DNA from: Bodo saltans
Taxonomy: Eukaryota > Euglenozoa > Kinetoplastea > Eubodonida > Bodonidae
Length of the DNA: 55,104 nucleotides
Assembly: GCA_001460835.1 (NCBI GenBank)
Contig: CYKH01001770.1
Span: forward strand, 1-55,104
Reading direction: 5' to 3'
A model generated the notes under the pieces. The model had not been told where the DNA came from. It did not search any database and saw only the letters and a program-made list of their open reading frames with translations. Each line of letters starts with the position of its first letter. The first letter of the stretch is position 1. A program made the translations under genes and the position numbers. Shown here in pieces: positions 3,114 through 39,841 of the stretch.

Positions 3114-5095
3114 ATGTCTCACCACAGCAGTTCCCGTGGCCTCACGCTGCGGAACAAACAACGTGAAGTACTAGTAGATATCATTCAGTCTGCAGTGCCG
3201 ATGGATAGCCTCTCTTCTAGCGCGCCTGTTGCAGCTGCAGCAGCTGGTGGTGGTATTTCATCTTCATGGAAGTTGCTTGTGTTTGACACTGTTGGCCGTG
3301 ACATGATCGCCCCCCTCCTTAAAGTCAAAGACTTGCGGGAGATGGGCGTGACGCTGCACATGATGATCGACAAACAGCGAGAGCCTGTCCCAGGTGCCCC
3401 TGCTATCTACTTGTGTGCCCCAACGGAGGAGAATATCGCCAAGATCGCCAAGGACTGCGTTCAAGAGTTGTATCAATGGGTATACGTGAACTTCACGGCG
3501 CCCATCCATCGGAAGCTGTTAGAAACCTTCGCCGAGCTGCTGACCGCTGAGGGGAAGCTTCGCTCGATTCGTCACATTCGAGTAGTGGACCGAACTCTCA
3601 GTTTCGTCGCCCTTTCAAACGATCAATTCAGTCTGATGATGCCGCGCACGCTGTACACGCTCAACAGTCGGCACACCACCGATGCCAACATGGATGTGTG
3701 CCTCACACAAATTGCCCAAGGGCTCACCCACGCCGTCATCTCCACGCAACAAGTGCCGGTGGTGGCGTTTGCCAAAGGCGGCGCAGCGGAGGAGGTCGGC
3801 AAGCGGGTCACTGTCGCCATTCATGATTTGTTAAAGGAGCGAATCTTCACCCCTCAGACCGCCACCGCAGCACTCGGCAGGCCTCTCCTCCTCATCACCG
3901 ATCGCACCACGGATCTACCGTGCGCACTCCACCATCCTTTTTCATATCGCGGGTTGTTGGTGGACGCTATGGGGATGCGGCTCAACAAGGTGGATTTGCA
4001 TAGCGACGGTAAGGAGATTTGCATAGCGACGGTAAGGAGAAGACGTTTGAAATGGACCCAGAGAACGATGCGTTCTTTCGTAGCAACGCCTCGGTGGAGT
4101 TCGGCAGTGTGGCAAGCAACGTCGAGAACGCTCTGGAAGAATACACAAGGGAAGTCAACAAGTTTTCCAAAGAAAACGGTGGCAGCGAAGACGGCAACGA
4201 CGCATCTACCATGTCCAAAATGCTGGCGCATGCTCCTAAGTTAGCAGAGAAGAAACGCAGCCTAGATGCCCACACAACGCTGGCCTACGGAATCCTCAAG
4301 TCCATCAAAGAATCTCAATTAGACGGTTTCAATGGAGTGGAGGCGGGTGCAATGAACCGCGAGGGCGTCGACCACGAGCACTTTGAGAAGTTGATGACAG
4401 GCCCCACCAGTCTGCAGGACAAGCAACGAATGTTCTTGATTGCCTACATGTTATCTCAGAGCGACGAAGACGCATCGGCTTTGGACAAGTATCTTCCATA
4501 CTGCGCTCAGCCTGCAGCAGCAACGCAGCCAACTGGCGCAACTCCATCGTCCCCGGCTACCGCAGCCGCAACGCCAACGGCTACGGCGGCCAAGCAATTC
4601 CCAGCTCTTCAATACATCAAACACTTACGCAGCTGGTCGATGCACGCCAACTCCCCGGCAACACAAAGCGCGAGCAGCAGTTCCCTTACAAGCGGCTGGG
4701 GCTTCGCTCAATCTCTTGCCAAGGGCATCGCAGCAACCCTTAAAGGGTCGTCTGAAGCAGAGTACACGCTGACTCGGCTCGTAGATGCGCTGCTGCAAGA
4801 TAGTAATTCCATTGGCGGGGGAGCTGGCGGTCGCAGTGGTGCCGCCGCGGCCCGCAGCAAATTGCTCGAAGGTTTGTCAGCAATGGATCCACGCAGCCGC
4901 CAACCGGTAGATGCGGGGGATATTCACTTTCATCAAGCGATTGTGTTTGTAGTGGGAGGTGGGAGTGTGAATGAGTATGATAACTTGAAGAACTGGGAGG
5001 CGCGGCACTCTCGGAAGTCCGTTGCGTACGGGTGCACTGACCTGCTCCGCGGCTCCGATGTGCTTCAAGAGCTGACGATGCTCGGCGGCGAGTAG
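3114..5095 (+). CDS. SLY1: Sly1-type Sec1/Munc18 SNARE regulator, frame broken by a 23-bp duplication
   Basis: Sec1/Munc18 proteins bind syntaxins and SNARE bundles; Sly1 acts in ER-Golgi fusion. The N-terminal half (3114-4016) starts with LRNKQREVL and WKLLVFDTVGRD, like domain 1 of Sly1, and carries RPLLLITDRTTDL, matching the family PLLVLVDRNLDL signature. The C-terminal half (4040-5095) has the Sly1 ending IVFVVGGGSVNEYDNL followed by a YGCTDLL block. The halves lie in different frames because 23 bp is repeated at 3994-4039. Removing one copy gives one 652-residue frame, the usual Sly1 length. The ATG at 3114 is the first in frame after the acceptor. A long Ala/Thr/Pro-rich insertion occupies about 4515-4600. 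The break may be an assembly error rather than a real pseudogene, because both halves are otherwise well conserved. Confidence 0.9.
3994..4039 (+). repeat. Perfect 23-bp tandem duplication inside SLY1
   Basis: Bases 3994-4016 and 4017-4039 are identical. Since 23 is not a multiple of three, the second copy shifts the frame of SLY1; removing one copy joins the two halves of the protein exactly. Confidence 0.95.
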
Positions 5096-5477
5096 TAGCG
5101 ACCCTTAGTAGCGGCTTGCGGCCCTTGGTTTCTATTTTATTTGTGCTGCACGAATTTCTATGTTTTGCAAAACTTGCACAACCTACTCTTTTCCTTGTGC
5201 CATGGCGTCGCGCTTGAGATTTATTTTTCTCTTTTGGTTTTGTGAGGAGTTTTCTACCCGCACAGCATTTACCGAGTGTGGAGAAACAGAGAAGTAACAC
5301 GGAGAAAAACGAGAGAATCATTATTCGGCTTGACATTTCTTTCTGAACATCGAAAAAAACAGAAGCATTTCGACAGAAACCGCTTCTGGCCAAATATTGT
5401 TAGTGAAATCAAAAAAAAGCAGAACTCGCTAAGAACGTAGCTACAGGAAGAGAAACCTGAAGAAGAAGAATAAACAA
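5096..5477 (+). other. Intergenic spacer before the HECT ligase gene
   Basis: This 382-bp spacer is T-rich in its first half and A-rich in its second half, as expected for a 3' UTR, splice acceptor and 5' UTR. No gene is recognised. Confidence 0.65.
5220..5246 (+). promoter_or_regulatory. Putative spliced-leader acceptor for the HECT gene
   Basis: The strongest pyrimidine-rich tract of the spacer is followed by AG at 5245-5246. This would leave a 5' UTR of about 230 bases. Later AGs, such as 5264-5265, are also possible. Confidence 0.35.
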
Positions 5478-8400
5478 ATGCCATCATCAACCAGCAGCCA
5501 AAGCGCAAGTCGGGCCTTTGCCCCACCGGTAGTGGGCGGCGACGGAAGCGGCCATTTTGGTTGTGTCGTTGTCAACGAGCGCCCAGCGTCGATTGCCTTC
5601 GACATGGTGGCGTCATTGCCGCCTGCTCGTCTGTGCAAAGATGCTTGGCCGTTACTGTCATCAGAGAAGCGTTGGCGGCGCTCAGCGATACGGAAGATTC
5701 CATCGGCTGTATATGGCGTGCAGACGGAGGGTGGCCGCCCTGGCGAAGTCGACGAGCATGTCCTTGCCGGCGGGGTGTCGGCTGCTGCAGACGCGTACGC
5801 TGCAATCCCGGACCCTCTAACCACCGTCGCACCGTTTCGGTCGGTGCTGTACCAGTGCACGTACCAGCAGCGCATGGAGGTGTTGGGAAGACATGTGACG
5901 GATAGCTTAGAGCAGCAAGGTGTGCTCGTTCCCGCTGTGCCTCCTGCTGCAACGACCACCACCACTGGAGCAACCGCAACAACGACGAATACACCGACTG
6001 CTGCAGGGAATCGAGGCGCGACGGGTCGAGGTGGTGCCTCTGCTATTCGACGAGGCAGCGCCATAACTACCACAACACGTCGATCTTCTGCAGGAGGTCG
6101 TGCTTCCGGTGGTACTGCTGCAGCAGCGGCAGCGGCAGCGGCGACACAAGCCAACATTTCTGTGGACGGATCTACATGTGAACCCATGACGATATCAACG
6201 CTGCTCACGTGCCCCACACAAAAGAAGGAGGATTTCAAAGTAGTGAACGCAGTCCTTTACCAAGTCATTTTGCCTATTGTTGTTGTCCCCACCAGAGGGA
6301 CTGATGGACGCCCATCAGATGACGCCCATGAGGACTCCTCTGCCATCCCACCACCGCCAAGCAGCACGCTGGAGGCCGTCGCCCAATCGTCGGTTGAGAA
6401 GGAGTTGGGCACGTTGCTCCACGTCGCGGCCACGTCCAAGGGACCAAAATTTCATCAGTACGCCAACGCAGTGCTACAAGTGTTATCCGTTCTTGGAGCT
6501 TTTATGGAACGAAGCAGCGCTGCCATCAGTCTGAACGTTGCAACGACGCCACCCATCATCGCCTCTGGTAAAGTGGACGAAGTTCAGCAGATATGGGAGA
6601 TTGCTGGTTTCTGTGTGCTGGCCGTCTTGCGCATTGCTCAACGCGTTTACACGGAGCTCCCCAGTGAAGCAAAAGCACTCCAGGAGCTGTGGTACGGGCG
6701 CCTTATCGTCCCCCTTCTGCACCTCACACCATTATTCCTCTGGCATGACAATCATCTGCGACACTTGGCACCCGTTTTGAAATCGATTACCATACCAGAA
6801 TCGCTAGACGACAGTGTCGGTGCACTAGCAGCTCCCGCAGCGACGGCGTCTGCCATCACATCGGTCACCATTGACGGTCACCCTACTGTCAACCGTAGCG
6901 GCTTGGTTGCAGAGGACCAGGCAGCAGCTGCTGCTGGCTTCGAACAAATTCATTTTGATGAGCACGTGCAGATCGACAATCGACCCTCCATTTCTGCAGC
7001 AGGTGGCGCTGATGCAGTAAGGTCCTTCCACAACGCTCCGCTTGGCTCTCGCTTGCGGCAACGCAGCCCATCCTCTACCGCTGCGACATCTGCAGCAGCG
7101 AGGACCCCAGGGGCATTGGCAGCACAGCCTACCTCTTGGTCTGCGTACGTGATGATGCCGTACGCTAGTCGTATCAGCGTCACCGTCCACACCGCCACGC
7201 GGTGCGAGACGCTGAAGGTGTGTCTTATTCCTGAAGACAGCGCGTCCAGCGTGGTGACCGCTGAGGTACCGCTGGCCGCTCACCGTTGCTCTGAGGAGGA
7301 GGAAGACGAGGGGAGGCAACACGCGGGACACGATGCTGCTGCTGCTGCTGCTGCAACCACGACGCCCCAACGACCGACTTCTGGAGACGCGGAGGCCGTG
7401 GCGCATGACCCTGAGGGGGAAAGCGCACAAACAGACGACGAGGAGCATCAGTGGTCCACTACACCCACCTCACGATTAATAGAGTCCCCGGTCGCCACGG
7501 AATGTGTGACCGGTGTGACGGCAAGGTCAGCGCATGCGCTCCACGAGGCAGGCTCCGTTTTTGTCCGGTGTGTGGGAGCAGGCCCTTACTGCCACTTCCA
7601 AGCGTCGGTTGTGGGCTCCGTGTCGCTGCTGCTGGACACGTCGTGCCTGAGTGAGGCACGCGCTGCTCTGACACATGCATCCCTTTGGGTCGCGGAGAAG
7701 TTGCTCGAGTCCCCCACTCCCGTTCCCGCATCGTGGCTAACGGCAATCCGTGCGCTATTGTCTGGTGGTGGGTCTATCATCACCACCGACAGCAGTGCCT
7801 CCTCGGGGGCAGGACATTTGATTCTGAATCTTTCCGACATGGCGATTGCTCGAAGCCTACGATGCCGCGTCTCCGATGCACCAAAGCTTCGTCTGATCGC
7901 CGCCATCGCCGCCCACGTTTGCTGCCTTCCCTCGCCTCAACCGTCAACTCCTCCAACATCGGTTGACACTATCATGCAAAGCAGCGCGTGGACAGACATT
8001 GGAAAACGTTGTGCATTGTACCTCGAGCGGCTATCACAAATTAATGTGCCAGAGGCGACTGCATTGGCCACGACGCTCGTCACCGTGTCCCTTCCACCCA
8101 AAGTCCCACTCTCTGTGACTGCTGCTCTTGATGCCGCCACGCAACTCCTGACTAGTGGAGTGACGTGCAGCGACTTGACACATTTCTTGCGACACCGCCG
8201 CAACGTTGCCCAGCAGTGGGTCGCTGGCCTCACAGCGCTTACCACTACCGCGTCCAGGCTTCAGTTGAGGGAGATGCACCATGTTGCCCGCGTGCTGCGG
8301 TATTGGATGCGTGGTGGTTCGACTGCAGCAACAACGTCATCCTCTGCTGAAAGTAACACCACCACAACCCCACCAGTATTTGCCGAGGTGCATCCTCACC

Positions 8401-11400
8401 ATCAGCATTACCTGACCCGCATTATTGGGTGCGGTGACGCCCTCTCTCTGGAGGTGCGCAACGCCTTCCAGCGTCTATTGAGCTATCTCTTTCAATCCCT
8501 CTGCGTGGCGATTCGTCGCATGACGAATAGCTCATGCCGCAGCCATCCCCATCGGTATGTGATGGCCGATGCGGAGGACGGCACATTGGTGATGTTAACC
8601 CTGTCCCTCCTCACCGCCCCCTTGGATACCAAAGATGTTGCGGTTGTCTCTCAGTCACGCATTGCGGAGCAGCTGCTTGAAGTGATGCCCAATTTTACCG
8701 AGTTTGGCCGCACGAACTCCTTTCGTGTGGACGAGGAGAATGAAGCCGGCATGGCGACGCTGCTGCAGACACTAGTAGACCAGTGGCAGACATTTGGTGC
8801 TGTGCACCCAGCCACCAGTGGCTCGGCATCATCATCATCAGGACGACGCAGCAGTCGCCGCGGCCCGTCGAGTGGTTCCAGCGAGCCTCGGAACACCTTT
8901 CCCCACGCTCAGCGTGGACAAAACGGCGCCTGGATGATTTCATCCGCATCGCGTAACCCGTGGAACGTGGCCAAGTACCCTATTCTCGATGTCGACTCCC
9001 TTGCAGCTGCATCGAGTGCCAATGATGATGGTCGACCGACGTCTCAACCAGGGTCTTTCCCGTTTGTAGAGGTTGCCGTCAAGTGCCCACCTTCAGCAGG
9101 TGCTGCCGCTACTGCCACCACACCGCCAGGCTCTTCTTCCCGTGCATCGTCCTCAGCGGCATCTCAGAGCACATCCGCCACAGCGGCACCATTTATCGTT
9201 GCCCTTGTTGGCTGCAACCCCAGCGCCACGCCTGCTGGCACCGATGCGTCTGCGCTACCAACTGCGATCACATCTGCACGTACGATGCCTGCACCTGAAG
9301 AGCATGCCGGCAGTTTCTTTATCCACTTTGATGGCGGGTTGACGATCACAGATGACAACTTGAGCGTCACGAAGTTACCATGGATTGTGCTGCAGGACGA
9401 AGACGTTCTGGGCCTTGGGTGCAGCTTCAACGCTCGGACTCAGAGGTGGGAGCTACATCTGTGGCTAAACGGAATTCGGTTGGCAGTATCCAACATTCAC
9501 GCCCCGCTCTTATTTCTGGGCGTTGGGGTTGGGGATCGCCGTCAAGGAGGCGCCAGCTCAGGCCAGGCGTCCCAGCAGCACACCACTGTGGAGGTGTCGT
9601 TCTGTGCCAGTGAAGTACACGAGCGTGTGTGGCACCAGTCGTGCCTTGAGGGCCTTGGGAAAGCGCTACTGCTCCCCACGCAGCATGAAGTGGCGCTTTA
9701 CGCATCGCATGCGTACGTGGTGCTGATGAGCCGCTGTGCTCGTTTGGTGAGCAAATGGCGCAGGGCGGCGGCAGCTGCGGCGCCCTCATCCTCCGCGACG
9801 GAGGTTCCACTCTCCCCTGTAGTGCCAATGTCGCCCATCTCAAGTGGTGCGGGCAACGGTACATTTCAGAGCAGCGGGTTCCAGCAGCACGCATTCCACG
9901 CACTTATCGAAGGAGGCTCCCAACGCCTCTGTGATAACATTCACGCAGTCGTGGCAGTGTTGGAGCAACTCCCCTCCCGCACTGCCAAACCAGCCAGTAG
10001 CAGCAGCAGCAGCGTCGCACCGACCGCACGACTGAAAGCTCTCGCTGCTCAGCACGTCTACAACACGCTACTACTGTACTGGGTCGGTGCCCTGCGTGTG
10101 TTGAGCCGTATCTATGGGTTCCACGTCGAGACGGTCGCTGCATTAGGCCGCGTTGTGACGTGTGAGTCGTTGGACGTGGGGATTCGCCTGACCACCATGC
10201 AACTGCTATCCTCTGCGCTAGACGACATGTCCCTCGTCGCTCAAATATCAACGAGCAGTCCTCCGCCGGAGGAGCTCTGGAATTTATGCCTGCGCCAAAG
10301 TGCACAGACGACATCTAGCGTCTACACTCCACGCTTCACCGAGACCACCATCGGTCCGAAGTTGATGCTGGAGGAGAGTGGAAAGACTGTCGCGACGCAG
10401 CCCGCCCACCGAAATGCGTCCAACGTAAAGAACAGCGCGTACGGTCTGCCAAGCATTCCCATCATCGCCAAGGCGGACATACAGCAAGCATCATCCCGCC
10501 TGCTGCATCATGCAGAAGGGCACCACTCCAACAACGCAACCACATCGAAGAGTGACGTTGTGTCGTTCTCCATACGCATGGCTCGTTCTGGCCGGACTGG
10601 TAGCTCCCTTGGTCGATATTATTTTGCGGGAGCCATTGGGTACCCACCAACGTCTGCCAACAACATCTTTACAGACTACATGCGTGGGATGGGAGACCGA
10701 TGTTTCTTGCTGCCTGACTACGCATCCGAAGTACCCACTCACATGAATAAATCAGAGCTGGAGCGGTACCGCCGTCACTGGCTCACCCCAGGCGCAGAGG
10801 GCAGCAATGCAGACGCTGTCATCTTCGGAAGCGGTGACTTGATCACTGTGTTGGTAGACACCAAGAAGCGAACGATTGCGTTTCAGCGCAATTCCCTCCC
10901 TCTTGGCATTCTCTATCAAGACCTCAAGGCGGAGGTCATGGACATCTATCCGTTTGTATGTTTGTACAATGGCGACGCAACGGCAACGTTCCAGACGAGG
11001 CCGAGTGAAGTAGGGATACGATCAAGAGTGTTGGTGCGTCAACTGCTGAGGGCGTGGCCTGAGTCCTTCGCGCCAAAGTTGTTAACATTGATCGATGATC
11101 GTGATCCAGTCTCCATGCGTGTGCTGCAGAGTGACGGCAATGATTTGGTCGTCATGCAACGAGCAGCGTTTGCCCAAAGCACGGCAAGCAGTAGCAACAG
11201 CAGCAGTCGCAACGGGGGTGGTACGGTGACTACCGTGTCAACGGTTCCGAGGTATCACTTCGTGCGTCTGCACGGTGATCATGTCGAGGCAACGGATGCT
11301 GACGGCCGCAATCGATTCTTCCCGGCAGACAGCATGGTACCGGACTACTCCTCAGAAACCACTGCCTTTTACGATATTCCTGCAGACACGCCAGTCCTTG

Positions 11401-14400
11401 CTGCACAAGTGGCCCTAAAGTGGCGGAATTTATTCCTCACGCGATTGATTGACGTGGTGTCAGGTTCGGTGATGGACGACGGGGAGGGTTGCATCTGCGT
11501 GCTTGCACCCCGTGTCTCCATCCGTGCCCTGCGACTGATCTGTCAACTGCCCTTTGATGTTCTGTCGTCCCTTGAGGAGAATCAGCAACAAACATTGCAG
11601 GACCTCACCGCTGTGCTGCAGATCCTTGCCCAAATGGAAGCAAACTCGACAGCAGGATCGGACGCCAAGAAAGCGTTGCACTCCGCATGGACGGAGCTTG
11701 ATACGTTAGACGAGCATCAAGCGGTGTTTCATGTTCGCAGTGAAGACAAGCAACAAGACGACGATGCAGAGGATGCAGACATCGTCCCTCGCCTAGGGAG
11801 CAGCAGCAACACCACTGAATCTGCAGAAGGCGACTCTCTTTGTCCCCTCAACTGTCCTTCCTGCGGGGGACCGTGGGGTTCATGCGACCACGCGGCTCCA
11901 GTCACCTACTGTGAACTGTTAGATGCCGCACTACGACGCCAATCTATCCCATCGGCGTATTCAGGTTGGAGGGGGTCGTGGAGTGAACCCGCTACCAGCT
12001 TCGAATGGGAGTTGCAGCAAGTGGGCGACGCCTCGTCTACCAACNNNNNNNNNNNNNNNNNNNNNNNNNNNNNNNNNNNNNNNNNNNNNNNNNNNNNNNN
12101 NNNNNNNNNNNNNNNNNNNNNNNNNNNNNNNNNNNNNNNNNNNNNNNNNNNNNNNNNNNNNNNNNNNNNNNNNNNNNNNNNNNNNNNNNNNNNNNNNNNN
12201 NNNNNNNNNNNNNNNNNNNNNNNNNNNNNNNNNNNNNNNNNNNNNNNNNNNNNNNNNNNNNNNNNNNNNNNNNNNNNNNNNNNNNNNNNNNNNNNNNNNN
12301 NNNNNNNNNNNNNNNNNNNNNNNNNNNNNNNNNNNNNNNNNNNNAACGCCGCTGCCTTCTCGTCCCACAAGCTGAAGAGCCACGCGTACACATACGATGT
12401 TCTTCGTAGCTCTCTTAAAGAGGAGGGGGACGCACAAGTCTACCACAGCCTTCAGCATTCTGTGTTGCCACTTCCTACCATGTCTCTCAAGAAGGTGATG
12501 GCTGCACACAAGGCGGATATTAAGAAGGCGACAAGCGCAGCCGCTGCTGGAGGAGTCACTCGGTTGGTTCTGCCAGCGGCGCTAGGACTTCCGCAGGGCA
12601 TGTTCGACGGAGACCACGAGGCAGTACTGCGCATGCTGAGCGCTCGTCTAGGGTTTACGGTTGAGGGTGCTGCCGGAGCTGCTGCTGCTGCTGGTAGCCC
12701 GTCGGGGTCGCCCACGTCGCCAAATGCCCAACTAGACTGCACAGAATCGGTCGTTCGGTCTGCCGTTCAAATGCTAGCGTCCCGTGCCCTTCTGTCGTGG
12801 CTGCCGGGGCTTATTCAAACCGGTGTGTTCTCCGTGAAGGCTGCAGGTGCAGTCGTGGCGAAGCTTCAGCATGCTGAAGACAGCTGGATGCGTGAGTGGA
12901 GCAACGCCCTGTCCAAGGAGCAGATTGAGGGCCTCTTGGAGTCCACTCTGCACGCGCTTCACCATTCCCAAGACGAAGGGCAAACGATTCCGTCGTCGGT
13001 GTCGTCGGTTGCTGCTCTTGGTACGGTGGCTCTGCATCTCCTTTCTATTGCCTCTCTTCCTAGAGAGCGTGTCACCCAACTGCGAGGTGTGTTGGTCGCT
13101 GGCCTCGCGAGAGGTTGTAGCACGTGGAGGAGCGTGCACCGAGATCGTATGCTCTCTAGTTTGTTATCGTGTTTCGAATCTTTCCGTGGAGATTCTTCCG
13201 TCAACACAACCCCCGTCCTCAAGTTGCTTTCTCAGCAACCAACGCTGCACAACCAACAAAGGTTGACGATCTTTGCTGCACTGCACGCGGTGGAGTCCGG
13301 CCAGCGCCACGCTGCGGTGACCGCCGCGAACTGGGTCACTCATGCGCTTCACCACATGAATCAAGGAAAGCCGTTGGCACAATTCTTTGATCGCTTCCAC
13401 CCTGACCACGCGCCCCACCTTGTGGTCCTACCGGACACAAAGCTCAACGACAACGGCGAGCTTATGGTGGGCCAGGTACGTGGAAGTGTTGCCGTGTACC
13501 CCAACCGAGGGGGCAAGTACTACTACGAGATGGTCCTGCCTCCTAACTACAGCGACCGACAGAAAACGATTGTGATGGGATGGGGCTCGAAACTGCACGA
13601 GGTGCAGGGCTCCTCCCAGCATGTAGGGTCCGACTTCCACTCCTGGGGTTTCAACGGGCGGAATCGTATTCGACTTCTCACCGGAGAGCAAGAGATTGCA
13701 GTCCCGCACAACACAGTGTCTGGGGATGTCATTGGGTCGCTGTTGGATTTAGAGAGAAAGCAGATGTGCTGGTCCATCAACGGGGAGCTTCTGCAGTGGG
13801 TCGATATTCCCTTGCAAGGGGACGGTGAACCGATCTACCCGTACGTAAGTGCGTCGGTCGACCCCCATTTTGTGCTGGTGCTTCTCAACGAAACGCAGTA
13901 TCTGCCTGAAGGGTTCACGGAGTTTACAAGCAACTTAGATGACCCCAATCTGCGCGAGGCCAGCACCACTGCACCACCACAGTCGTTCACGTTTTACAAG
14001 GAGCTAACGAGCCTAGTGAATGAATTGAGCAATAGCGGCCTTCGCATCGAGGAGCTGGTAGTGGTGCGTGACGTCGAGGTAGATGCTGCTACACCACTCC
14101 CTGTGGACCCAGCAACGGACTACGTTGACCGCTCTATAGCGCTCCTGCCACAGTATCCACACATTTGCAATTACCTCCTCGGTGCGCTCGATAGTATTCG
14201 TGGCACCACAACGCCATCGGACTGCGAAGAAGAAGAAGTTCAGCGAATTCGCGAAGTGACGCTCCGATCACTTTCGCGATGTGATTTGGATGCGACCATT
14301 ATTCCGTATCTTCGACATTTGTTCTGCCTGAATGCCATGTCGACGGTTGTGGCAAAACGGACCGACTTGATTCGTGACTCTCCGTTCTTGTGGGGTTTGT

Positions 14401-25300: not shown

Positions 25301-28300
25301 TGCATTTTGCGACACTGAAGCCTCTCCGTGTTCTCACTGGGAAGATTCTTGAGCACCATGCCGCCATCGAGTGGGGCCGAGACCCCCAATCCGCCACCGA
25401 CTACCCACCCACCTCGACCCCCATGTTGTTTGGCGTGGAACGTGCCAACCAGTACCACCTCCGGGTCTACACTCCTCATGAGCGAACCGTGCCCATGGCG
25501 GACAAGCAGTTTGCTGGTACCGTCACTCGCTACAACCTTGTGAACTTGGCACCGAATGCCTGCTACATCGTCCAAGCCCGTTCATGCAACGTCATTGGAG
25601 AGTGGGGCCTGTGGTCTGAGGAACGTGTCATCTACACCATGAAGCTTGTCGAGCTTGACATCACCGCAGTGGGAGAAGACTACATCAAGGTGTCGTGGCG
25701 CCGTGAAGAGCCAGATGAGCTCCAAGAGATGGTCCAAGTAGAGAAGGCCGCTCTTGACGACGTAGACGACGAGGCGCTCGTCGATGAGGCCGCACTCAAG
25801 GCTCTCATGATGCGCAAGCGCTACCCCCTGCTCGACAAGCCCACTGACCGCAACGCTGCGCACCAAGCCGTCTACGCGTCAGCACGCACCGCCATCTTCA
25901 CCTACACCCTCTCCATCACCAAGCGTGGAGAGACCGAGGACATTGTGATGGAAGTGCCGGCATCGAGTGGTGGTGCCCGTAATACCAGCTCCTGGACTGT
26001 GTCGCATCTCCGCCCAGATACGCAGTACTCCATCGCCATCCGTGCGTACTACGGTGACGAAGATTGGGGTCTGTGGAGCGAGCGAGTTGTGTCGGGGACA
26101 ATGAACCTGCTCGCTGCGGATGTGAAGTATGTGGGAGAAGACTATCTGTCTGCGAGCTGGCAACGCATGCCCACGAGCTACCCTACCAATGGCGATGCGC
26201 GCGTTGGTAAGACGGAGGAGACACTGTGCTATGAATTCAAGCTCTTCGACTTTTCCGATGTTCCTATTGGAGAAGAGGCTGCAGCGGATCTCGACGCTCT
26301 CCAAGTCCGCGAGGTGCTCGTCGCAAAGCTCAAGGTCGCCACGATCAAAGCTCTGCGCTCCAACCGTCGCTACCGCATGTGCGTGCGCCGCTGGTACCAC
26401 CCTATCGAAGAGGCGGGCGCGCTGGTTCCTGTGATGGAGGAGAGCGAGAAGCCGCTGTCCGAAGAGCAGCGTCTTCGAGTCCTCATGGAGCGCAACCATG
26501 GCACCCCTGGTGCGTGGAGCGACGCTGTGTTCGCCATCACACTCAAGGACATGGTGGTCCTTGTGGATGAGATCGCAGAGGACTCTCTTAACATTCATTG
26601 GGACCGTGACCCCAACGCCGCCGTACTCCCCACCCGCCAGTGCCTCAAGGTGCCCACTGTGGTGCTGAGCTATCACGTGCGCATCGATGCCATGACCAAC
26701 GACGGGTCTATTGTGGATAACGCGGCCAACACGCTGCACCTCGACCATGTATTTGGCCCAGAGGAGACTTCTTACGTCGTGCCCGACCTCCGACCTGACG
26801 CAGTCTACAAGGTGGACGTGCGGTGCTGCACCGACAAGGTGTGGGGCCAATGGAGCCGCACTGTGTACGTCGTGACACTGCCCAAGCTGAGCATCACCCT
26901 CCAATCCATTGGAGAAGACTATGTCTCGTTACAGTGGACCCGCAACATCCGCAGCCTCACCCTTCCAGACGGCACTGCTGCAGTGGTGGGCAACTCGAAC
27001 AACGTGGAGAAGTATCACATGGACATGACCGGCGTCGATCACCACTTCCGTCTAGAGAAGAAGTTCAAGGCGTCCCGCACGTCCTACCGAGTGAAGCACC
27101 TAGAGGCCCAGACGGTGTACCACATCGCCGTCCGTTCCTGCGACGTGCACGGCACGTGGAGCTTGTGGAGCGAGGCAGTTGTGTTTGCCACCCTGAAGCC
27201 CCTTCGCCTGCACCTCGGCAAGGCGGGAGAGCAGTTCGTGCACGTCTCATGGGACCGCCCCGAGCAGACGGTCGAGGAGTACCAGCACGTCGACCCCAAC
27301 ATTCAACTTGGCAATACCAACGTCCTCTCCTACCACTTGTGCGCCTTCGCCATGGACCAAGCCCCGTCTACCGCTGTGGTGGACAAACAGTTCCATGGCG
27401 ATGTGAGCAAGTACCGCATCACGACGCTAACCCCGAACACCAGCTACATTATTATCGTGCGTGCCTGCAATGATGAGTCGCAATGGGGCTTGTGGTCTGA
27501 GGAGCGCATCATCCGCACCCAACGCGTCCTGACCTTGCAGATTGGCGGCATCGGTGAAAACTACGTCAAGGTTCGCTGGGAGCGCGAGGAGTCCGATGGC
27601 GGTGCGCAGAGTGCTGGTGGTGCAGATGCCCCTGCTAGTGACGCGACCCTCGGCCTCCCCTCGTCGTTCCACCTTGCCATCACCAGCGAGGTGGAGACAG
27701 TGGATCGTCACTTTACCCTTGAAGAGTGCAACACGTCGAACGAGCTCCGCCTTCCCGAGTATTTGACCAACAACTTAACCCCAGATACCAAGTACCTGAT
27801 TGCCCTTCAGCCATGTTACGGCAACGACGAGTGGGGTCTTTGGACAAAGCCCCTTACGTTTGTCACCCTTAACCGCATCTCCATAATGACAACCAGCGTG
27901 TCGGAGTCTAAGGTCGAGCTCGCCTGGGGCCGAGCACAACAGAGCGTGGAGCTTGCGGCCGACCCTAACATTGTGACGTGGCGAGGAACGATCGTCAAGT
28001 ACCAGCTGTTGATGCGCAAGGTTGAGGAGATGAACGCAGCGGCACGTCGAGAGCGTGAACGTTCCCTGCATCCTACTGTTGTGGCTGAGTCCGACATGGA
28101 CCCTGCTGTGGAGGGCAGCGGTGCCGCCCAACCACGCGCGGAGACCTCCGATGCTCTGGTCGTCACTGGCAGCAACACGTCCGGAGCCGTCGACGGCAAT
28201 GCAGTTGCGCTCGTAAGCGACGATGTGAATGCTAGCTCAACCAAGCGTCGTCAGAGTCTTGTCCAAGAGCCAGATGAGCTGCGCATTGAGCGCGACATCG

Positions 28301-30608: not shown

Positions 30609-30669
30609 CATCAATATCGACCAGTAAAACAGTTAAGAGACATCACTAATGGATGCGTAGTCATCGTGC

Positions 30670-30723
30670 GTAATCTTCTGGTATTTTGTCCTGTCTATCT
30701 TGTCGTTTTAACCAACAAATTAG
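30670..30723 (+). repeat. 54-bp leader segment repeated at 31685-31738 (first copy)
   Basis: This pyrimidine-rich segment lies just upstream of the spectrin-like gene and ends in an AG. A copy matching at 52 of 54 positions lies at the right edge of the same gene, directly against the N gap. Confidence 0.9.
30685..30723 (+). promoter_or_regulatory. Putative spliced-leader acceptor for the spectrin-like gene
   Basis: A long pyrimidine-rich tract is followed by TAG at 30721-30723, ten bases before the ATG at 30734. Confidence 0.5.
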
Positions 30724-30733
30724 TCTTTTAAGA

Positions 30734-31738
30734 ATGCTCAAGCGTTTCGACAGCGTGACCAACCAAGCTGAGCTCAACAGCTTGACCCTAGCGGCCCGAG
30801 CCTCTGGAAGCGTTGCTTCCTATGACTCACTTGTGAAGAAGGAAAACGAGATTGCCCATGCGCAAGCTCAGCTGGTGCTAGAGATCCAAGTGGCAGAAGA
30901 AAACGTGAACAAGGAAATTCAAGAAGCAACGACGCGTAAGGTGGCCGCGGCGCGCCGTGCGCAGGAGCTCCGTGATCAGATTAAGGCCAAGAAGCTTGCT
31001 AAAGCGTCAAGCACTGCTGAGGGGTATCGTATCTTCTTAAATCGTGTCGGTGCCTTGTACCAAGAGCTTTCCCTGCGCAAAGCTGTGTTGGCGCAAGTGT
31101 CCACGTACAGCCCTCACGACCTGCGCCACGCTCCGCTGGAGTCCGCGTACGTCTTTGTCAATGACTGGCAGCAGTACGCTGATGAGGTGCAGCAGTCGCT
31201 GCGTGAACTCGAGGTGCAAGGAAAGGGATTATCGGCTTCCGGCGCGGACGCGACCGATGTCAGCATCCTTCGCGCCCTTGTCGCAGATGTCCAATCCCTC
31301 TACACTCAAGTGGTAGCGGACGTTGCTCGCGAGCATTCTCGCCGCGAGAACAACGCGGACACTGTGGCGGACTTTATGCGCAACCAGGCCCAACTGGTGC
31401 ACTGGTGCCGCTCTCAAAAGAATGCCCTTGAGTCTGTTCAGGACACTGACCAAGTCCAAGAGCTTTGCACGTCCTTCCAGAACAACATCAGCGTCATGGA
31501 AACCAATCTGCTGGTGCTCTTGGAGCTCTCCGAACCCTTTGCTCCCAACCCACAGGTGACCCAGGCACTTATTGAGGTGAATGAAGTGTGGCTGAACTTG
31601 GCGGTCTACGCGTTTGAACGCATGCGTGACACGTTGATGGAGCTGCACGCTCAGTCGGGTGTTGAGGTGGCGACAAAAAAAAAAGTAATCTTCTGGTATT
31701 TTGTCCTGTCTATCTTGTCGTTTTTACCAACAAATAAG
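30734..31738 (+). CDS. Spectrin-like coiled-coil protein, 3' end lost in gap
   Basis: From the ATG at 30734 the product is almost wholly helical. A charged coiled coil (about residues 40-95, with ENEIAHAQAQLVLEIQVAEE) leads into units with the look of spectrin repeats, such as FVNDWQQYADEVQQSLREL and LVHWCRSQKNALESVQD. No catalytic motif is seen. Native coding sequence probably runs only to about 31684. After a run of A, bases 31685-31738 repeat the upstream leader of this same gene, and then the 300-N gap begins. The last 18 translated codons are therefore likely not native. Likely a cytoskeletal or flagellar structural protein; this is inference from composition only. Confidence 0.7.
31685..31738 (+). 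repeat. Second copy of the 54-bp leader segment at the gap edge
   Basis: The segment matches 30670-30723 at 52 of 54 positions and follows a run of ten A. It is fused in frame to the spectrin-like gene and stops exactly at the N gap. It could be the leader of a second tandem gene copy, joined wrongly, or a mis-join. Confidence 0.9.
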
Positions 31739-32038
31739 NNNNNNNNNNNNNNNNNNNNNNNNNNNNNNNNNNNNNNNNNNNNNNNNNNNNNNNNNNNNNN
31801 NNNNNNNNNNNNNNNNNNNNNNNNNNNNNNNNNNNNNNNNNNNNNNNNNNNNNNNNNNNNNNNNNNNNNNNNNNNNNNNNNNNNNNNNNNNNNNNNNNNN
31901 NNNNNNNNNNNNNNNNNNNNNNNNNNNNNNNNNNNNNNNNNNNNNNNNNNNNNNNNNNNNNNNNNNNNNNNNNNNNNNNNNNNNNNNNNNNNNNNNNNNN
32001 NNNNNNNNNNNNNNNNNNNNNNNNNNNNNNNNNNNNNN
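31739..32038. other. Assembly gap (300 N)
   Basis: Exactly 300 N lie between the spectrin-like gene and MCM10. The gap hides the end of the former, and the spacer, start and N-terminal part of the latter. Confidence 0.97.
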
Positions 32039-32046
32039 CGTGGTAA

Positions 32047-34185
32047 CCACGCCTGGTGTCAAAATCTGACGCCAAGGTGAGCCAGGGGAAGTCTGGGGCG
32101 AATGCGTTCGGCATGCTGCGTGTCTGGTCGATGCGTGGAATGTCAGGAGGCGGCCATGGAGAGGAGGTTGCTGTGCTGGTGTGCGACGCTGCTTTCCGAG
32201 AGCAATACCGGCGGCTGGATGTGGGAAGTGTGATTGTGTTGTGCAAACTGGAACTCATGAAGCCTTCTTCATCGACTTCCAGCAGCACCAGTCAACAACA
32301 GCAGCAGAGTTTGACGCTGAGGTGCGCGGAGATCGAGCAACTGCGCCCACTGGGCTTTGCCAAAACATTGAAGCCGTGCTCAGCGGTGAACAAGAGCAAC
32401 GGAGAACAATGTAAGCGAATGGTGAACGTCGTCGAATGTGCCTACTGCTCGTTTCATGTCTCTGAACTCAACAAAGTGTTACGTAGCAACAGCAGCAGCA
32501 GCTCGACACCATCGAGTGCAATGCGTTCTGCGCAGCAGCAGCACGCACCCTCAACCACCACGACGACCATGTTGATGGCGCCCACTGGACCATTCGGTGG
32601 AGGACTGAGGCCACTTCAACCTCACGTCACCACCACAACAGGAACACTGCAGCCTAGAACTGTGCTAGGTGGCCCGTCGCACAATCCGCTAGTTGTAACT
32701 TCGACGCGCCCGGCATCGTCGACAACAACATCAATACCAGCATCACCTCGAGTTGCAGGGGCTGTTGCAACAATCACTCCTGTTGCAGTGAAGGGTGCTG
32801 GTGTGGCACGGACAGCACCGTCATTGGTGGCATCAGCCGCGGCAACTTTTGTAACTTCGACGCGCCCGGCATCATCGACAACAACATCAATAGCAGCATC
32901 GCCTCGAGTTGCAGGGGCTGGTGCAACAATCACTCCTGTTGCAGTGAAGAGTGCTGGTGTGGCACGGACAGCACCGTCATTGGTGGCATCAGCCGCGGCA
33001 ACTTTGCTAAACCGGTCCCACAGCGGCCTGACCTCTAGAACGGTTGCTGCCGCATCGTTGCTGTCAGCCTCACAGCCTCAGCGGTTGCAAGCCGAGTCGT
33101 TCATCGCCACTCGGGGACATGAAGTGGTCAGTGGCAGTTCAAGCCGCACTGGCATCACATCTGAGGAGGATGGCGTCGCAGGTGGAACGTACGCTGGCGT
33201 TGTGCGATTGGCGGGGACGATGGAAGTGACTGGTGTTGACCGTTCCGTGTTACGTCCCACATCCGGCACGCCTTTTGGACCTCAGGCGATGGACGGAAAG
33301 CCTCGAGCGTCGTTGGCCACATTGGGTGTGACGAGTCGAGGGAGGAATGTGCTATCAGCCGCAGTGCAGCGAACCGATGACGATGCACGTGCGCAAGCAG
33401 TGCAGGACGCGATGAAGTTGAGGTTGGCGTCGGTTGCTTCCTCTCCGAGATCGACAGTTCTTGCGGGCACCACCGTTACGTCGGCAACCAGTGTCCCACG
33501 AGCACAGCAGCACTATGCCCCGTTGGCCGGTACGTCGCGGCTGGAGGAGGACATGGTGCTACCTGCCGCACACAATCCGAATCGAATCTTCGCCAAGCGA
33601 TCATCTGTGGTAGGTGCGCTGGCGGCAAGCATGCGCGCGGCGTCTTCAACCACACAACCCTCTCCAGCATCCACTGGACCTCCGTCAGTTAGTGGGATGA
33701 CAAAGGCGCTAAGCTCCGCAGGGGCTGCTGCGCAAAACGTGCAAAGTCGGCACGATGATCTTCGAAAGGTTGCCGAGAAGGAGAAGCTGGACGCGTCCAG
33801 CAAGCGGCTTCTGGAGGTAGACAAAGCACTGTCCGCCCTTGACAAGGTGTTCGAGCAGAAAGTCAACGCAGTCCACTGCCGTACCTGCCGAAGGTACTTT
33901 CCTTCACGACCCCACAGCTGCGCGACTGAAGGCCATGCTCTCCTTGCTGTTCAGACGGTAAAGCGATTCTACTCGTGCGATCATTGCAAGCACAGAGTGA
34001 CGGTGCTTGGGGAGGAGTTGAACGCATCGTTGCTGTACCCCTCGTGTCCAAAGTGCAGATCGATTGGCATCTGGAACGCTGCAAGCGCCGCACCAACCAA
34101 TTATCATGTTCGTGATGTTGATGGGGATGACGAAGACTGTCGCCGTGGGGTGCAGCAAGGCTCGGCCCGTGACGACAACGAATGA
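32047..34185 (+). CDS. MCM10: DNA replication factor MCM10, 5' partial
   Basis: MCM10 binds the CMG helicase, single-stranded DNA and polymerase alpha at replication forks. The visible N-terminal part is the second half of its OB fold (FGMLRVWSMRG, then VAVLVCDAAFREQYRRLDVG). It is followed by the diagnostic zinc finger LGFAKTLKPC, NGEQCKRMVN and ECAYCSFHV (about nt 32350-32465). A long Ser/Thr/Ala-rich linker with a 156-bp duplicated unit follows. The C-terminal part has a charged helix and the tandem zinc-ribbon region CRTCRRYFPSRPHSC, then CDHCKHRV and SCPKC (about nt 33875-34065), as in animal MCM10. The true start lies in the gap. An in-frame TAA at 32044 conflicts with OB-fold homology that should continue upstream, so a sequence error near the contig edge is likely. 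The first in-frame ATG, at 32113, would cut the OB fold. Confidence 0.88.
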   Translation, partial: PRLVSKSDAKVSQGKSGANAFGMLRVWSMRGMSGGGHGEEVAVLVCDAAFREQYRRLDVGSVIVLCKLELMKPSSSTSSSTSQQQQQSLTLRCAEIEQLRPLGFAKTLKPCSAVNKSNGEQCKRMVNVVECAYCSFHVSELNKVLRSNSSSSSTPSSAMRSAQQQHAPSTTTTTMLMAPTGPFGGGLRPLQPHVTTTTGTLQPRTVLGGPSHNPLVVTSTRPASSTTTSIPASPRVAGAVATITPVAVKGAGVARTAPSLVASAAATFVTSTRPASSTTTSIAASPRVAGAGATITPVAVKSAGVARTAPSLVASAAATLLNRSHSGLTSRTVAAASLLSASQPQRLQAESFIATRGHEVVSGSSSRTGITSEEDGVAGGTYAGVVRLAGTMEVTGVDRSVLRPTSGTPFGPQAMDGKPRASLATLGVTSRGRNVLSAAVQRTDDDARAQAVQDAMKLRLASVASSPRSTVLAGTTVTSATSVPRAQQHYAPLAGTSRLEEDMVLPAAHNPNRIFAKRSSVVGALAASMRAASSTTQPSPASTGPPSVSGMTKALSSAGAAAQNVQSRHDDLRKVAEKEKLDASSKRLLEVDKALSALDKVFEQKVNAVHCRTCRRYFPSRPHSCATEGHALLAVQTVKRFYSCDHCKHRVTVLGEELNASLLYPSCPKCRSIGIWNAASAAPTNYHVRDVDGDDEDCRRGVQQGSARDDNE
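32695..33006 (+). repeat. 156-bp in-frame tandem duplication in the MCM10 linker
   Basis: Two units (32695-32850 and 32851-33006) differ at only about five positions. Each encodes 52 Ala/Ser/Thr/Val-rich residues (TSTRPASSTTTSI...), so the frame is kept. The substitutions suggest a real, slightly aged duplication. Confidence 0.88.
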
Positions 34186-34298
34186 AGACATTGCATGAAG
34201 AACTTCGGTTCCTTCTTTCTTTATTTTGCCTTTTCTAACAAAACGTTGAGGCTTGCACACATGAGGTGTTGTTGATTGGAATGTTATAAGTGATAATT

Positions 34299-34341
34299 TG
34301 TTTTCCTTCTGTCTCTTCTTGTCACACATTTTTCTTACAAG
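34299..34341 (+). promoter_or_regulatory. Putative spliced-leader acceptor for NAF1
   Basis: This is one of the clearest tracts of the window: about 35 pyrimidine-rich bases, then AG at 34340-34341, eight bases before the ATG at 34350. Confidence 0.6.
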
Positions 34342-34349
34342 GGGCAAAT

Positions 34350-35736
34350 ATGTGTGACTTTGTGGAAGATGTCGTTGGTATTCCCAAGAGAGAAGTGTCC
34401 ATTTCCTCGTGCGACTCAGACCCGTTGGAGTATCGTCATCGAGGTGGGCTGAGGTCTTCGCAATCATCAGCATACGGCGGTAGCGATGATGGCTCCGATG
34501 ATGATCTGGAAACGAAGAGTTGCGGTGGAGACTCCGTAGTATCGATTGCGTCATCGTCGCGTTCTGGTGGCGGTGGTGGCGGTGGACGGGACAGACGATT
34601 TCACGCAATGGAGGCAATGGATATTCAAGAACTCGCTGCTGATTTGTTAGGTCGTCCAGCAGGAGCAGTGGGGGAAGGAGGAGATGCGGAGCAATCATCC
34701 GCCGCAACAGATCCGTTGCCGCCCCTTGAGGCAATCAACATTGATCACGTATCAGAGGCGCCAGTCGCTGTCATTGAGTCTGTCATTGTCAGCAGCAGCA
34801 CCGTGGTCGCAGACAAGCGGCCGGATGCACTGGTGGTGGACGCAGGTACTCGCATTTGTCTTTCCGACGGGACTATTGTCGGCATTGTCGCCACGGTGCT
34901 CGGGCCTATCAGTTCATGCGCCTATGCAATTGCGTGCCGACCTGGTGCCATTGCAGATCTTGCACTGGAAGACCGCATCGGCGAGGGCACATTGCTGCAC
35001 TACGACGTGACGAAACAAGTGGTGCTGTACGACCCAGCATTGCAGTGTGACAGCGGCAAAGGAACCGACGCCAGTTTTGTGCAAGATGAAGAACTTCCTC
35101 TAGGGACTCGTCCTGATTTTAGTGACGACGAGGATGAACGAGCATGGAAGCGCCGCAGACGAGAAAACGCTGCTGCAGGAAACAGTGCTTCTGCAGCGGC
35201 AGATCGTCAACAAATTGCCGCGGACAGAAAAATGCTCGCACAGATGCAGGCCCAGAGTGCCAAGAAGATCTCTCCGCAGCAGAATAATGCTGGTGGTGGT
35301 ACACACCAACCGCTAGCAGCAGTAATCGATGAGGTCGAGGTTGTGTCAGCAGTGTGACAGCGGCAAAGGAACCGACGCCAGTTTTGTGCAAGATGAAGAA
35401 CTTCCTCTAGGGACTCGTCCTGATTTTAGTGACGACGAGGATGAACGAGCATGGAAGCGCCGCAGACGAGAAAACGCTGCTGCAGGAAACAGTGCTTCTG
35501 CAGCGGCAGATCGTCAACAAATTGCCGCGGACAGAAAAATGCTCGCACAGATGCAGGCCCAGAGTGCCAAGAAGATCTCTCCGCAGCAGAATAATGCTGG
35601 TGGTGGTACACACCAACCGCTAGCAGCAGTAATCGATGAGGTCGAGGTTGTGTCATCGTCAGACTCTGAAGTAGAGTTTGACGATGAAGGCAACATGGTG
35701 GCATACCGCCCTCGCCGTAGAAAGCGCGGTCTGTAG
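34350..35736 (+). CDS. NAF1: H/ACA snoRNP assembly factor NAF1, frame broken by a 307-bp duplication
   Basis: NAF1 is a nuclear factor that holds the place of Gar1 during assembly of H/ACA pseudouridylation RNPs. The Gar1/Naf1 core lies at about nt 34835-35060: ICLSDGTIVGIVATVLGPIS, then LEDRIGEGTLLHYDV, ending in the Naf1-specific GKGTDASFVQDEELP. A SDDEDE acidic patch and a basic KRRRRE follow. The N-terminal half is acidic and low-complexity. A perfect 307-bp tandem copy (35042-35655) shifts the frame and gives a premature TGA at 35355. With one copy removed, a single frame of 359 residues runs from 34350 to the TAG at 35734 and ends in YRPRRRKRGL. The break is probably an assembly fault. 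Confidence 0.85.
35042..35655 (+). repeat. Perfect 307-bp tandem duplication inside NAF1
   Basis: Bases 35042-35348 and 35349-35655 appear identical throughout. The unit is 1 mod 3, so the second copy breaks the NAF1 frame. Deleting either copy restores an uninterrupted frame. Confidence 0.95.
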
Positions 35737-35888
35737 TCCTTCTCCACTTGAACATTATTAAAGAACATGACGTCAACTCGGTTAACAACATACCACGGTA
35801 CGAAGGGTATGAAATGCAAGACAAAAAGACATTTCCTTCTCATTGTGTTCCAGTTACGTTGATTTCTTTTTCTTTTTATTGACAACAC

Positions 35889-35908
35889 CTTTTTTTTTGG
35901 ACACAAAG
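35889..35908 (+). promoter_or_regulatory. Putative spliced-leader acceptor for the BTB/T1 gene
   Basis: A T run is followed by AG at 35907-35908, 29 bases before the ATG. A second T tract (35913-35925) with AG at 35936-35937 directly abuts the ATG and is less likely. Confidence 0.4.
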
Positions 35909-35937
35909 TACACTTTTTTTCTTCTGGCGCATCAAAG

Positions 35938-36708: not shown

Positions 36709-36833
36709 TGAGAGGAGTGTAGATTCAGACGAGTGCTGCGGAGATTAGACCAAGATTCGAACGAGACTTTATTTTTGAGCGCGTTGAACGTTTTTAGAAG
36801 TGGAATGAGCTGACGCTTTGCTTTATTGGATCG

Positions 36834-36854
36834 TGGTTGTCTTATTTTGCTAAG
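36834..36854 (+). promoter_or_regulatory. Putative spliced-leader acceptor for the SET-like gene
   Basis: A T-rich stretch ends in AG at 36853-36854, 24 bases before the ATG at 36879. Confidence 0.45.
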
Positions 36855-36878
36855 AGAAGAGCTTGTCTACAACATGAA

Positions 36879-37985: not shown

Positions 37986-38337
37986 TAGATTTTTCTGTGG
38001 AACCATTCTATAGTCCTGGAAGGGCCAAAAAGTACAGAAAGTCGTGCTGAAATGGATCAGTTTGTACTTGCTCAAGAATCAAAAAAAGAGGGAAATCGTC
38101 AATTATGGTGTATTTCGCCCCACACGGGGTTTTATAGAGCCCACTTCTGGTGTACCCAAAACATGTTTTTTTTGTGTTTTTAGGCTGTGCTTTGCCATAT
38201 TTCCAGGACTATATTATAGGTTGTTTCGGTTGACTACCTTCTCATCAAATCTCTTTTTGCATTTTATTATCGACCATATTATTATTATGCTCTTTTGTCG
38301 TTTACTTGATGCTCTCCGTTCGCAAGAGGTGATCCAT
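37986..38337 (+). other. Intergenic spacer before the TMEM144-like gene
   Basis: This 352-bp AT-rich spacer happens to be open in the frame of the next gene, with an in-frame ATG at 38287, but the splice acceptor lies after that ATG. No separate gene is seen. Confidence 0.6.
38291..38326 (+). promoter_or_regulatory. Putative spliced-leader acceptor for the TMEM144-like gene
   Basis: A pyrimidine-rich tract ends in AG at 38325-38326. This favours the ATG at 38338 as start over the upstream in-frame ATG at 38287. Confidence 0.5.
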
Positions 38338-39841
38338 ATGTTTCGTCACACGTTTCTTTCTGTCCTCATCATCATGATGCTTGCTGCACCCATGGAGGTC
38401 TTCGGTCGCGGATGCGGTCAACCATCGAACGACATTCTTGCAGCTTGCACAGACTGGCAGTGTTCTCGCACATTGGCCGTTCAGAGCTCTGCCAATGCTA
38501 CTACATCCTACTATTGCCTCCGTGGATTGGCCTCGGGTGAAGGGCCGTGCCACACCAATGCAGATTGCTACAACGAGTTATCTTGCAACACGACATCTTC
38601 CTTGTGTGTGCCCACAGGCACGACTAAGAATGCCGCCATTGGTTATGTTGGTGTGGCCATTGCTGTGCTACTGTTCGGCACCAATTACATTCCTGCACGA
38701 CGCCTTCGCAGTGGGAACGGCGTTTTCTTTCAGTTCGCGATGGCGATGGGCATATTGGTCGTGGGGGTTGTCATTCAACTTGTGCGCGGCTCATCTACGA
38801 TATACCCTGCTGCGATGCTCGGTGGCATGTTTTGGGCGATAGGAAACTGCGCCTCGGTGCGAGCCATCAATGCTATTGGCATGGGTCTCGCTGTGACAAC
38901 ATGGGGATGCTCCAACATGCTCGTCGGTTGGGCGGGTGGACGCTTCGGTGCGTGGGGCATGAGCAAGGAGATCCCAACGTCAGAAGTCTACAGCATCCTC
39001 GGTGTTGCGTTTGGACTTGTCGCTATTGTGGTTTTCGGATTCGTGAAGCCTGCTGAGGATCGTGCTAAAGAGGAGGAAGAGGGGAAGTACGCATCATTGG
39101 TGGATGATGACGAAGATTCATCCGCCCCTACCACTGCGAAAAAAAAAAGCATCCTCGGTGTTGCGTTTGGACTTGTCGCTATTGTGGTATTCGGCTTCGT
39201 TAAGCCTGCTGAGGATCGTGCTAACGATGAAGATGAAGGAAAATACGCATCATTGGTGGATGACGAGGATTCATCCGCCCCTACCACCGCAGCAGCGGAG
39301 CCACTGAGCCCATCGAAGCGTATTGCTGGGTTTATGATCGCCTTGGCGTGTGGGGTCTGCTATGGATTCAACTTCTTTCCTTCTCAGGCGATGATGGACC
39401 ACTACGGGCAGCGCACACAAGAGGGTAACACACAGTACAGTCCCAACGGGCTTGACTACTCCTTCTCCATGTTCCTTGGTATCTTTCCTTGGTATCTTTC
39501 TTACGTCGACTTCGTACTTGCTGATGGTGCTCCTCCTTCGTGACCGATTTCCAGCGTTGGACGATGCTGAGGATACCACCCACCCTAAGGAGATGTTTCC
39601 TTACGCTTTTGTGTCTGGGGTCATGTGGGCCGGTGCCAACGCGGCGTGGTTTGTGGCGAACACCAACTTGGGTCTTGTGGTCAGCTACCCGCTGATTGCG
39701 TTAGGCCCATGTGTTGTGGCATCTGTGGTTGGTGCTGTGTTGTTTGGCGAGCTTCGCGGGAGGCGTAACGTGATCCTTTTGACGGCTGCATTTTCTGTGG
39801 TGGGCGTGTCTTGTGTGTTCACTGTCCTCTCCAAGGAGTAG
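38338..39841 (+). CDS. TMEM144-type drug/metabolite-like transporter, with internal duplication and frameshift
   Basis: A signal peptide (FLSVLIIMMLAAPMEVFG) is followed by about 75 residues with eight or more Cys, probably luminal or extracellular. Then come the TMEM144 family landmarks: AAIGYVGVAIAVLLFGTNYI, AAMLGGMFWAIGNC, MGLAVTTWGCSNMLVGWA, and in the second half SGVMWAGANAAWF and LIALGPCVVASVVGAVLFGE. The substrate of TMEM144 is not established. Two faults are seen. A 52-codon unit (SILGVAFGLVAIVV...) is present twice, adding a membrane span. A perfect 13-bp duplication at 39474-39499 shifts the frame; removing it joins 38338-39486 to 39500-39841 as one frame of 496 residues (444 without the 52-codon copy). 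The second half is excluded from the first frame, which ends at a TGA at 39541. Confidence 0.85.
38992..39290 (+). repeat. Imperfect direct duplication (156-bp unit) in the TMEM144-like gene
   Basis: Copy A (38992-39147) and copy B (from 39148) encode nearly the same residues. They differ at synonymous sites, in a short acidic stretch and by one codon. A run of A joins them. They look like two alleles or paralogues rather than a fresh copy. Confidence 0.9.
39474..39499 (+). repeat. Perfect 13-bp tandem duplication breaking the TMEM144-like frame
   Basis: The unit ccttggtatcttt occurs twice in a row. Removing one copy restores MFLGIFLTSTSYLL in a continuous frame. Confidence 0.93.

Follow-up and report, generated by a model that had tools for sequence, protein, structure and literature searches.

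RESULTS

Perfect tandem duplications in three genes

We analyzed a stretch of 55,104 nucleotides from the draft genome of the kinetoplastid Bodo saltans (GenBank assembly GCA_001460835.1, contig CYKH01001770.1, positions 1 to 55,104 of the forward strand), referred to here as the window. Three genes in the window, SLY1, a NAF1-like gene, and a TMEM144-like gene, each contain a perfect tandem duplication (Table 1). The duplications were located by an exact scan and with Tandem Repeats Finder. Their periods are 23, 307, and 13 bp, respectively, none a multiple of three, with 100% identity between copies and copy numbers of 2.00 to 2.23. All three consist of only two abutting, identical copies and show no drift, as an assembly artefact should. 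Simulation of 60 order-1 Markov windows of equal size produced no perfect tandem repeat with a period of 13 to 699 bp, and the analytic chance expectation for such repeats is 0.0012 per window. The occurrence of three by chance is excluded.

Table 1. Duplications, joins, gaps, and affected genes in the window
Position	Strand	Feature	Evidence
3114..5095	+	SLY1 gene, split into two overlapping open frames (3105-4244, 4019-5095)	Sec1 profile, 1mqs
3993..4040	+	Perfect 23-bp tandem duplication in SLY1 (Sec1 family); frame shift	Exact scan, Tandem Repeats Finder; 25-base match
12045..12344	.	Gap of exactly 300 N, inside 3467-aa open frame	
31675..31684	+	A10 run interrupting the gene that begins at 30734; identity with the sequence from 30670 then holds for exactly 40 bases	
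31685..31738	+	Copy (96%) of the gene's own upstream region 30670-30723; ends at N gap	
31739..32038	.	Gap of exactly 300 N	
34350..35736	+	NAF1-like gene with displaced C-terminal tail; intact RNA-binding domain (Gar1/Naf1), 34785-35003	
35042..35655	+	Perfect tandem duplication, 307 bp, in 3' part of NAF1-like gene; shifts the frame, and a stop follows three codons into the second copy	
38993..39290	+	Diverged in-frame duplication (90% identity) with a spacing of 156 and A10 between the copies; doubles one membrane segment of the TMEM144-like protein	
39139..39148	+	A10 run at junction; identity with the sequence from 38993 then holds for exactly 40 bases	
39472..39500	+	Perfect 13-bp tandem duplication in TMEM144-like gene; frame shift	Exact scan, Tandem Repeats Finder; 16-base match

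The effect of each duplication on the reading frame was assessed by running a count of stop-free codons to the junction and taking it up again one period further on. In SLY1, 655 codons were stop free with one period skipped, versus 379 without, and GC content by codon phase rotated clearly and as expected across the 23-bp repeat. A profile search placed positions 1 to 242 of the Sec1 profile upstream of the repeat and positions 249 to 575 downstream, and the best solved chain, yeast Sly1 (1mqs), was matched at residues 57 to 307 before the repeat and from residue 322 onward after it. Little or nothing is therefore missing at the break, and only the 23 bases are doubled. We saw no decay in SLY1 beyond the single lesion, and both sides retain strong Sec1 profile matches. 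We found four Sec1-family genes in the genome, which is a lower bound; three match in a single frame without stops (profile spans 1-575, 1-575, and 2-554), and SLY1 alone is split. SLY1 is essential in yeast. DNA searches for second copies covered 29.3 Mb in 934 contigs of the genome and found the SLY1 region at its own place in the window only.

In the NAF1-like gene, the Gar1/Naf1 domain (amino acids 146 to 218) precedes the 307-bp repeat and is intact, and the displaced tail comprises only ∼26 residues. Skipping one period gave 379 stop-free codons versus 355 without the skip, and the stop then reached sits where GC content falls from 0.54 to 0.36. The rotation of GC phase within the 81-base tail is less sure than in SLY1. 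The 307-bp unit contains two GT..AG positions exactly one period apart. The same DNA searches returned the NAF1 unit at its own place only, and one Gar1/Naf1-family gene was found elsewhere in the genome.

The TMEM144-like gene gave 604 stop-free codons with one period of the 13-bp repeat skipped versus 509 without, with a clear rotation of GC phase downstream of the break. The TMEM144 profile matched in three consecutive pieces (2-148, 121-229, and 225-332), of which the last seam is the 13-bp repeat and the first is a diverged repeat with a spacing of 156 bp, where positions 38993-39138 recur at 39149-39290. Profile positions 121 to 148 were thus matched twice, corresponding to the doubled segment. 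Codon lists of the two copies show that they differ mostly at synonymous sites. The DNA searches for a second copy of this region found none beyond the window's own places. A TMEM144 paralogue on another contig (C723) matches profile positions 2 to 332 in a single frame and is intact.

An initial annotation of the window, made from its letters alone, had reported the three perfect duplications and held that each breaks a conserved gene by shifting its frame and that removal of one copy gives an intact full-length protein. Its placements agree with ours to within a few bases, and the gene identities are borne out by matches to the Sec1 family and 1mqs, the Gar1/Naf1 domain, and the TMEM144 family. 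The rise in stop-free codons when one period is skipped likewise confirms that each duplication, none a multiple of three, shifts the frame. For SLY1, recovery of an intact protein agrees with the continuity of the Sec1 profile. For the TMEM144-like protein, undoing the 13-bp repeat alone would leave one segment present twice, which would not be normal, since the 156-bp in-frame copy stays in place. In the NAF1-like gene only the tail is affected, and "broken" seems a strong word because the Gar1/Naf1 domain lies intact upstream of the repeat.

Recurrence of perfect duplications in the genome

To place these repeats in context, we used a sample of 28 stretches of the genome, window included, comprising 264,601 non-N bases. 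Ten stretches started with N from base 1, and two of these were wholly N; 25 further stretches among those sampled held 197,995 non-N bases, and the sample without the window held 210,097. Perfect tandem duplications with a period of at least 13 bp numbered 10, all of about two copies. Seven of them lie outside the window, a density of 33 per Mb (95% range, 13 to 69) in a sample that is small and non-random. Finished Escherichia coli K-12 sequence contained one such repeat in 250,000 bases, or 4 per Mb (0.1 to 22), which is a weak control, as it is a different kind of organism and the ranges overlap.

The perfect duplications fall into two length groups, with seven of 13 to 39 bp, none of 40 to 100 bp, and three above 100 bp (157, 224, and 307 bp). 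The periods of all 10 are indivisible by three, and the set lacks the marks of natural coding minisatellites (a unit that is a multiple of three, variable copy number, and drift). Skipping one period lengthened the longest open reading in 8 of the 10 cases. The gain was at least 95 codons in four (SLY1, the TMEM144-like gene, and sampled stretches L010 and L022, the latter being two of the seven outside the window) and 9 to 24 codons in four others (the NAF1-like gene, L014, L003, and L021); L018 and L025 showed no gain. By a rough measure, 220,459 of the 264,601 bases lie within stop-free stretches of at least 200 codons on some strand. Among units of 10 to 12 bp in the same sample, four of six were multiples of three.

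Diverged near-abutting repeats were recounted with a gap of at most 10 bases. Two-copy repeats of 88 to 99% identity were found at L007 9119, L008 4517, L012 695, L014 3492, L026 920, and L020 4997, with spacings of 70, 397, 607, 400, 377, and 84, respectively (the L020 copies lie 2 bases apart and the others abut). These are likely joined haplotypes or natural repeats. The first five spacings are not multiples of three; the L020 spacing is, as are that of a repeat in the window at 32693 (156) and those of three joins with a homopolymer filler (102, 66, and 156). The lack of multiples of three is, so, a property of the perfect set only.

Homopolymer joins and gaps

The 28 stretches contain 100 runs of A or T of at least 8 bases, and in five of these a flank recurs within 3 kb. 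Four of the five share one geometry: the run is 10 bases long, its right flank copies an upstream place, and the first mismatch comes after exactly 40 identical bases. Two of these joins are in the window (A10), and two are in other contigs, L008 and L014 (T10); in the L008 join, an eleventh T counts as part of the match. For a random first identical block at 4 to 10% divergence, the probability of a length of 40 is 0.001 to 0.008 each. Diverged repeats without filler, checked for 40-base blocks, showed no general rule.

At one of the two window joins, the second copy runs into a 300-N gap and cuts short the gene that starts at 30734. The source of this copy was traced to 30670, and no other place was found. 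Internal N runs in the 28 stretches number only two, both in the window and both exactly 300. The initial annotation mentioned neither the in-frame TMEM144 duplication nor the A10 joins nor the pair of 300-N gaps.

Other features of the window

The 3467-aa open frame (5478-15881) remains open, without a change of frame, to either side of its 300-N gap. It is followed by a 4412-aa protein (16360-29598) with fibronectin type III-like domains, in which 11 copies of a 41-nt motif reading like WG..WS were listed. An Mcm10-like gene (32056-34185) holds the 97% identical, in-frame two-copy repeat of 156 bp mentioned above (32693-33005), which may be genuine or a join of haplotypes. The 1.46-kb stretch that separates the TMEM144-like gene from the gene at 41306 has no open frame of 150 aa, and in it an 80% direct repeat occupies 40185-40318 and 40736-40874. 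A leucine-rich-repeat gene (52669 onward) has an in-frame TAG at 53497-53499, where its sister repeats have a serine codon; the frame is open on both sides, and this is a point nonsense change with no duplication there.

DISCUSSION

We conclude, with a probability of about 95%, that the three perfect duplications are assembly artefacts and not a biological feature. An artefact can be told apart from a mutation here because the duplications recur, are exactly identical, have two copies only, include no multiple of three, and are accompanied by joins with a 40-base mark. These 40-base joins are the strongest evidence for assembly error. The 2016 Konstanz draft of B. saltans (39.9 Mb, scaffold N50 of 31.5 kb) was assembled with Velvet at a kmer of 41, followed by SSPACE, GapFiller, and IMAGE and then iCORN and REAPR (PMC4728078). 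In keeping with this species, contig C599 carries TTL, UBC, GPI8, ATP12, FAM221, and DnaJ in succession, and B. saltans fosmid 45a12 is listed with similar genes (DnaJ, two genes, GPI8, then TTL and a ubiquitin-conjugating enzyme; PMC2621209), except that TTL and UBC are reversed relative to the numbers in its legend. Forty is k − 1 for k = 41, the length by which adjacent contigs overlap in the corresponding k-mer graph. The 40-base overlap and 10-base filler at the companion joins are traces of assembler parameters, through which the artefacts can be tied to the published k = 41 pipeline. The initial annotation had also proposed a systematic assembly error, which is supported by the recurrence in other contigs and by the companion joins. 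Its argument from frame restoration carries less weight: the frames do collapse open, but this happens with every tandem duplication located within an open frame, whether genuine or spurious, and frame restoration alone thus fails to separate artefact from mutation.

The duplications probably arose where adjoining contigs with overlapping ends were joined end to end, so that the overlap was written twice. The causes may divide by length. Overlaps of 13 and 23 bp would be too short to be merged in the k-mer graph, as would all lengths below 40 at k = 41; at 307 bp, gap filling may have extended both edges past each other, and lengths of 157 to 307 bp fit a 500-bp library. If the two ends derived from divergent versions of a single locus (two haplotypes or culture strains), the same joining would produce diverged repeats, in some cases separated by a 10-base filler. 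Short gaps are output by Velvet as 10 N, any N that it reads is taken as A, and a helper script of IMAGE writes 300 N. A literature search for these three conventions gave no support, with nothing relevant among the matches listed; the "10 Ns" of one listed paper is a splitting threshold, and we rejected that paper as a source. From Velvet's behavior, we infer that the A10 runs are 10-N gaps read as A, and the program responsible for each join is likewise inferred. IMAGE extends contig ends up to the fragment length and merges them if the new contig aligns on both sides (Tsai et al. 2010, PMC2884544), and it gives relatively large genomes, most likely via extension of scaffold edges (GapFiller paper, PMC3446322). 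Such extension could leave identical letters on both edges. Unmerged exact duplications are not described in the available portions of PMC2884544 and PMC3446322, and that step is our own proposal.

It is important to note that several observations weigh against an assembly error. The exact 40-base mark is absent from the three perfect repeats and is found on the companion joins only, so that the repeats are convicted by association. A frame-blind artefact should give about one-third multiples of three, and the 0 of 10 seen (P = 0.017) is unexplained; it is perhaps chance in so small a sample. Selection on real duplications would have the opposite effect, favoring multiples of three, a tendency seen among the 10- to 12-bp units. 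The fifth run with a recurring flank is off the pattern: in L025 a T9 run has a left flank that repeats 39 bases lying upstream (exact 39-base repeat, 718-756 and 1016-1063, the second copy running into T9), which resembles the filler joins but differs from them in geometry. IMAGE made few errors in its authors' own tests, with misassembly in 4 of 383 simulated gaps that it closed and agreement at all but one of 71 gaps that were sequenced (PMC2884544), and the final iCORN and REAPR steps (PMC4728078) left these duplications in place. Further, given the intact C723 paralogue, loss of the TMEM144-like gene could be tolerable.

That paralogue also bears on the view that the duplications are real recent mutations, by slippage or end joining, in genes that are pseudogenes or heterozygous. 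Short tandem duplications are common mutations, and the letters stand as deposited. Against this, neither the SLY1 nor the NAF1 region turned up a second time in the DNA searches of 29.3 Mb (the other three Sec1-family genes and the one Gar1/Naf1-family gene are left unassigned), and both sides of SLY1 match their profile strongly. The density of repeats is high, multiples of three are lacking even though most sampled bases lie in long stop-free stretches, and the companion joins in the window bear assembler marks. We consider such mutations very unlikely. It is harder still to credit that the perfect duplications are real and frequent, shun multiples of three, and leave the core genes working thanks to a bypass by RNA or ribosome.

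A cause confined to the tandem joining of two haplotypes (heterotype duplication), with no unmerged identical ends, overlaps with our preferred explanation in that both are assembly errors. The abutting two-copy repeats of 94 to 99% identity in L007, L008, L012, and L026 speak for it, as does the mostly synonymous divergence of the 38993/39149 pair. The three perfect repeats, however, are 100% identical, even over 307 bp, and need no haplotype difference; haplotype joining is unlikely as their sole origin and is better seen as a sister cause in the same assembly. The duplications might instead be real and be removed from RNA as introns born by tandem duplication, leaving normal proteins, which we regard as extremely unlikely. 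The 307-bp unit, with its two GT..AG positions one period apart, and the 157-bp duplication of L010, with one, would permit it. Such positions are absent in 8 of the 10 duplications, including those of 23 and 13 bp, whose length, moreover, is below that of an ordinary intron. In-place introns were rejected by this test, save as a sequence possibility in NAF1. In B. saltans, introns have been assumed absent and this has not been contradicted since, as far as stated in PMC4728078.

Artefacts of this kind have already been described in general (PMC2864568, PMC9516828). Kelley and Salzberg (2010, PMC2864568) reported false segmental duplications by mis-assembly, including "duplicated overlapping contigs," although their cases concerned haplotype contigs of vertebrate assemblies and were assessed with mate pairs, whereas here identical, frame-shifting units of 13 to 307 bp were judged without them. 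Ko et al. (2022, PMC9516828) showed that assembly duplications mislead gene counts, with haplotype divergence as the main source and sequencing errors as a minor one; there the result was whole-copy gene gains, and here it is the splitting of single genes. Among the matches listed in a literature search, there was no published report of such assembly errors for the B. saltans genome; one matching paper was rejected, as "misassembled" there refers to proteins.

Most likely, SLY1, NAF1, and the TMEM144-like gene stand in the cell as single copies with normal frames. B. saltans serves as the free-living yardstick for parasitic kinetoplastids, and its 18,943 genes are roughly twice a parasite's number (PMC4728078). 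Scaling 33 per Mb to 39.9 Mb gives on the order of 1,300 perfect duplications (roughly 530 to 2,700), an extrapolation from a small and non-random sample. Because the open reading grows in 8 of the 10 duplications when one period is passed over, some hundreds of gene models may, by the same extrapolation, be fragments. False duplications cannot explain the doubled gene number but could bias counts, absences, and "truncated" genes. The practical value of the finding is thus a warning about gene models in the organism against which the parasitic kinetoplastids are measured.

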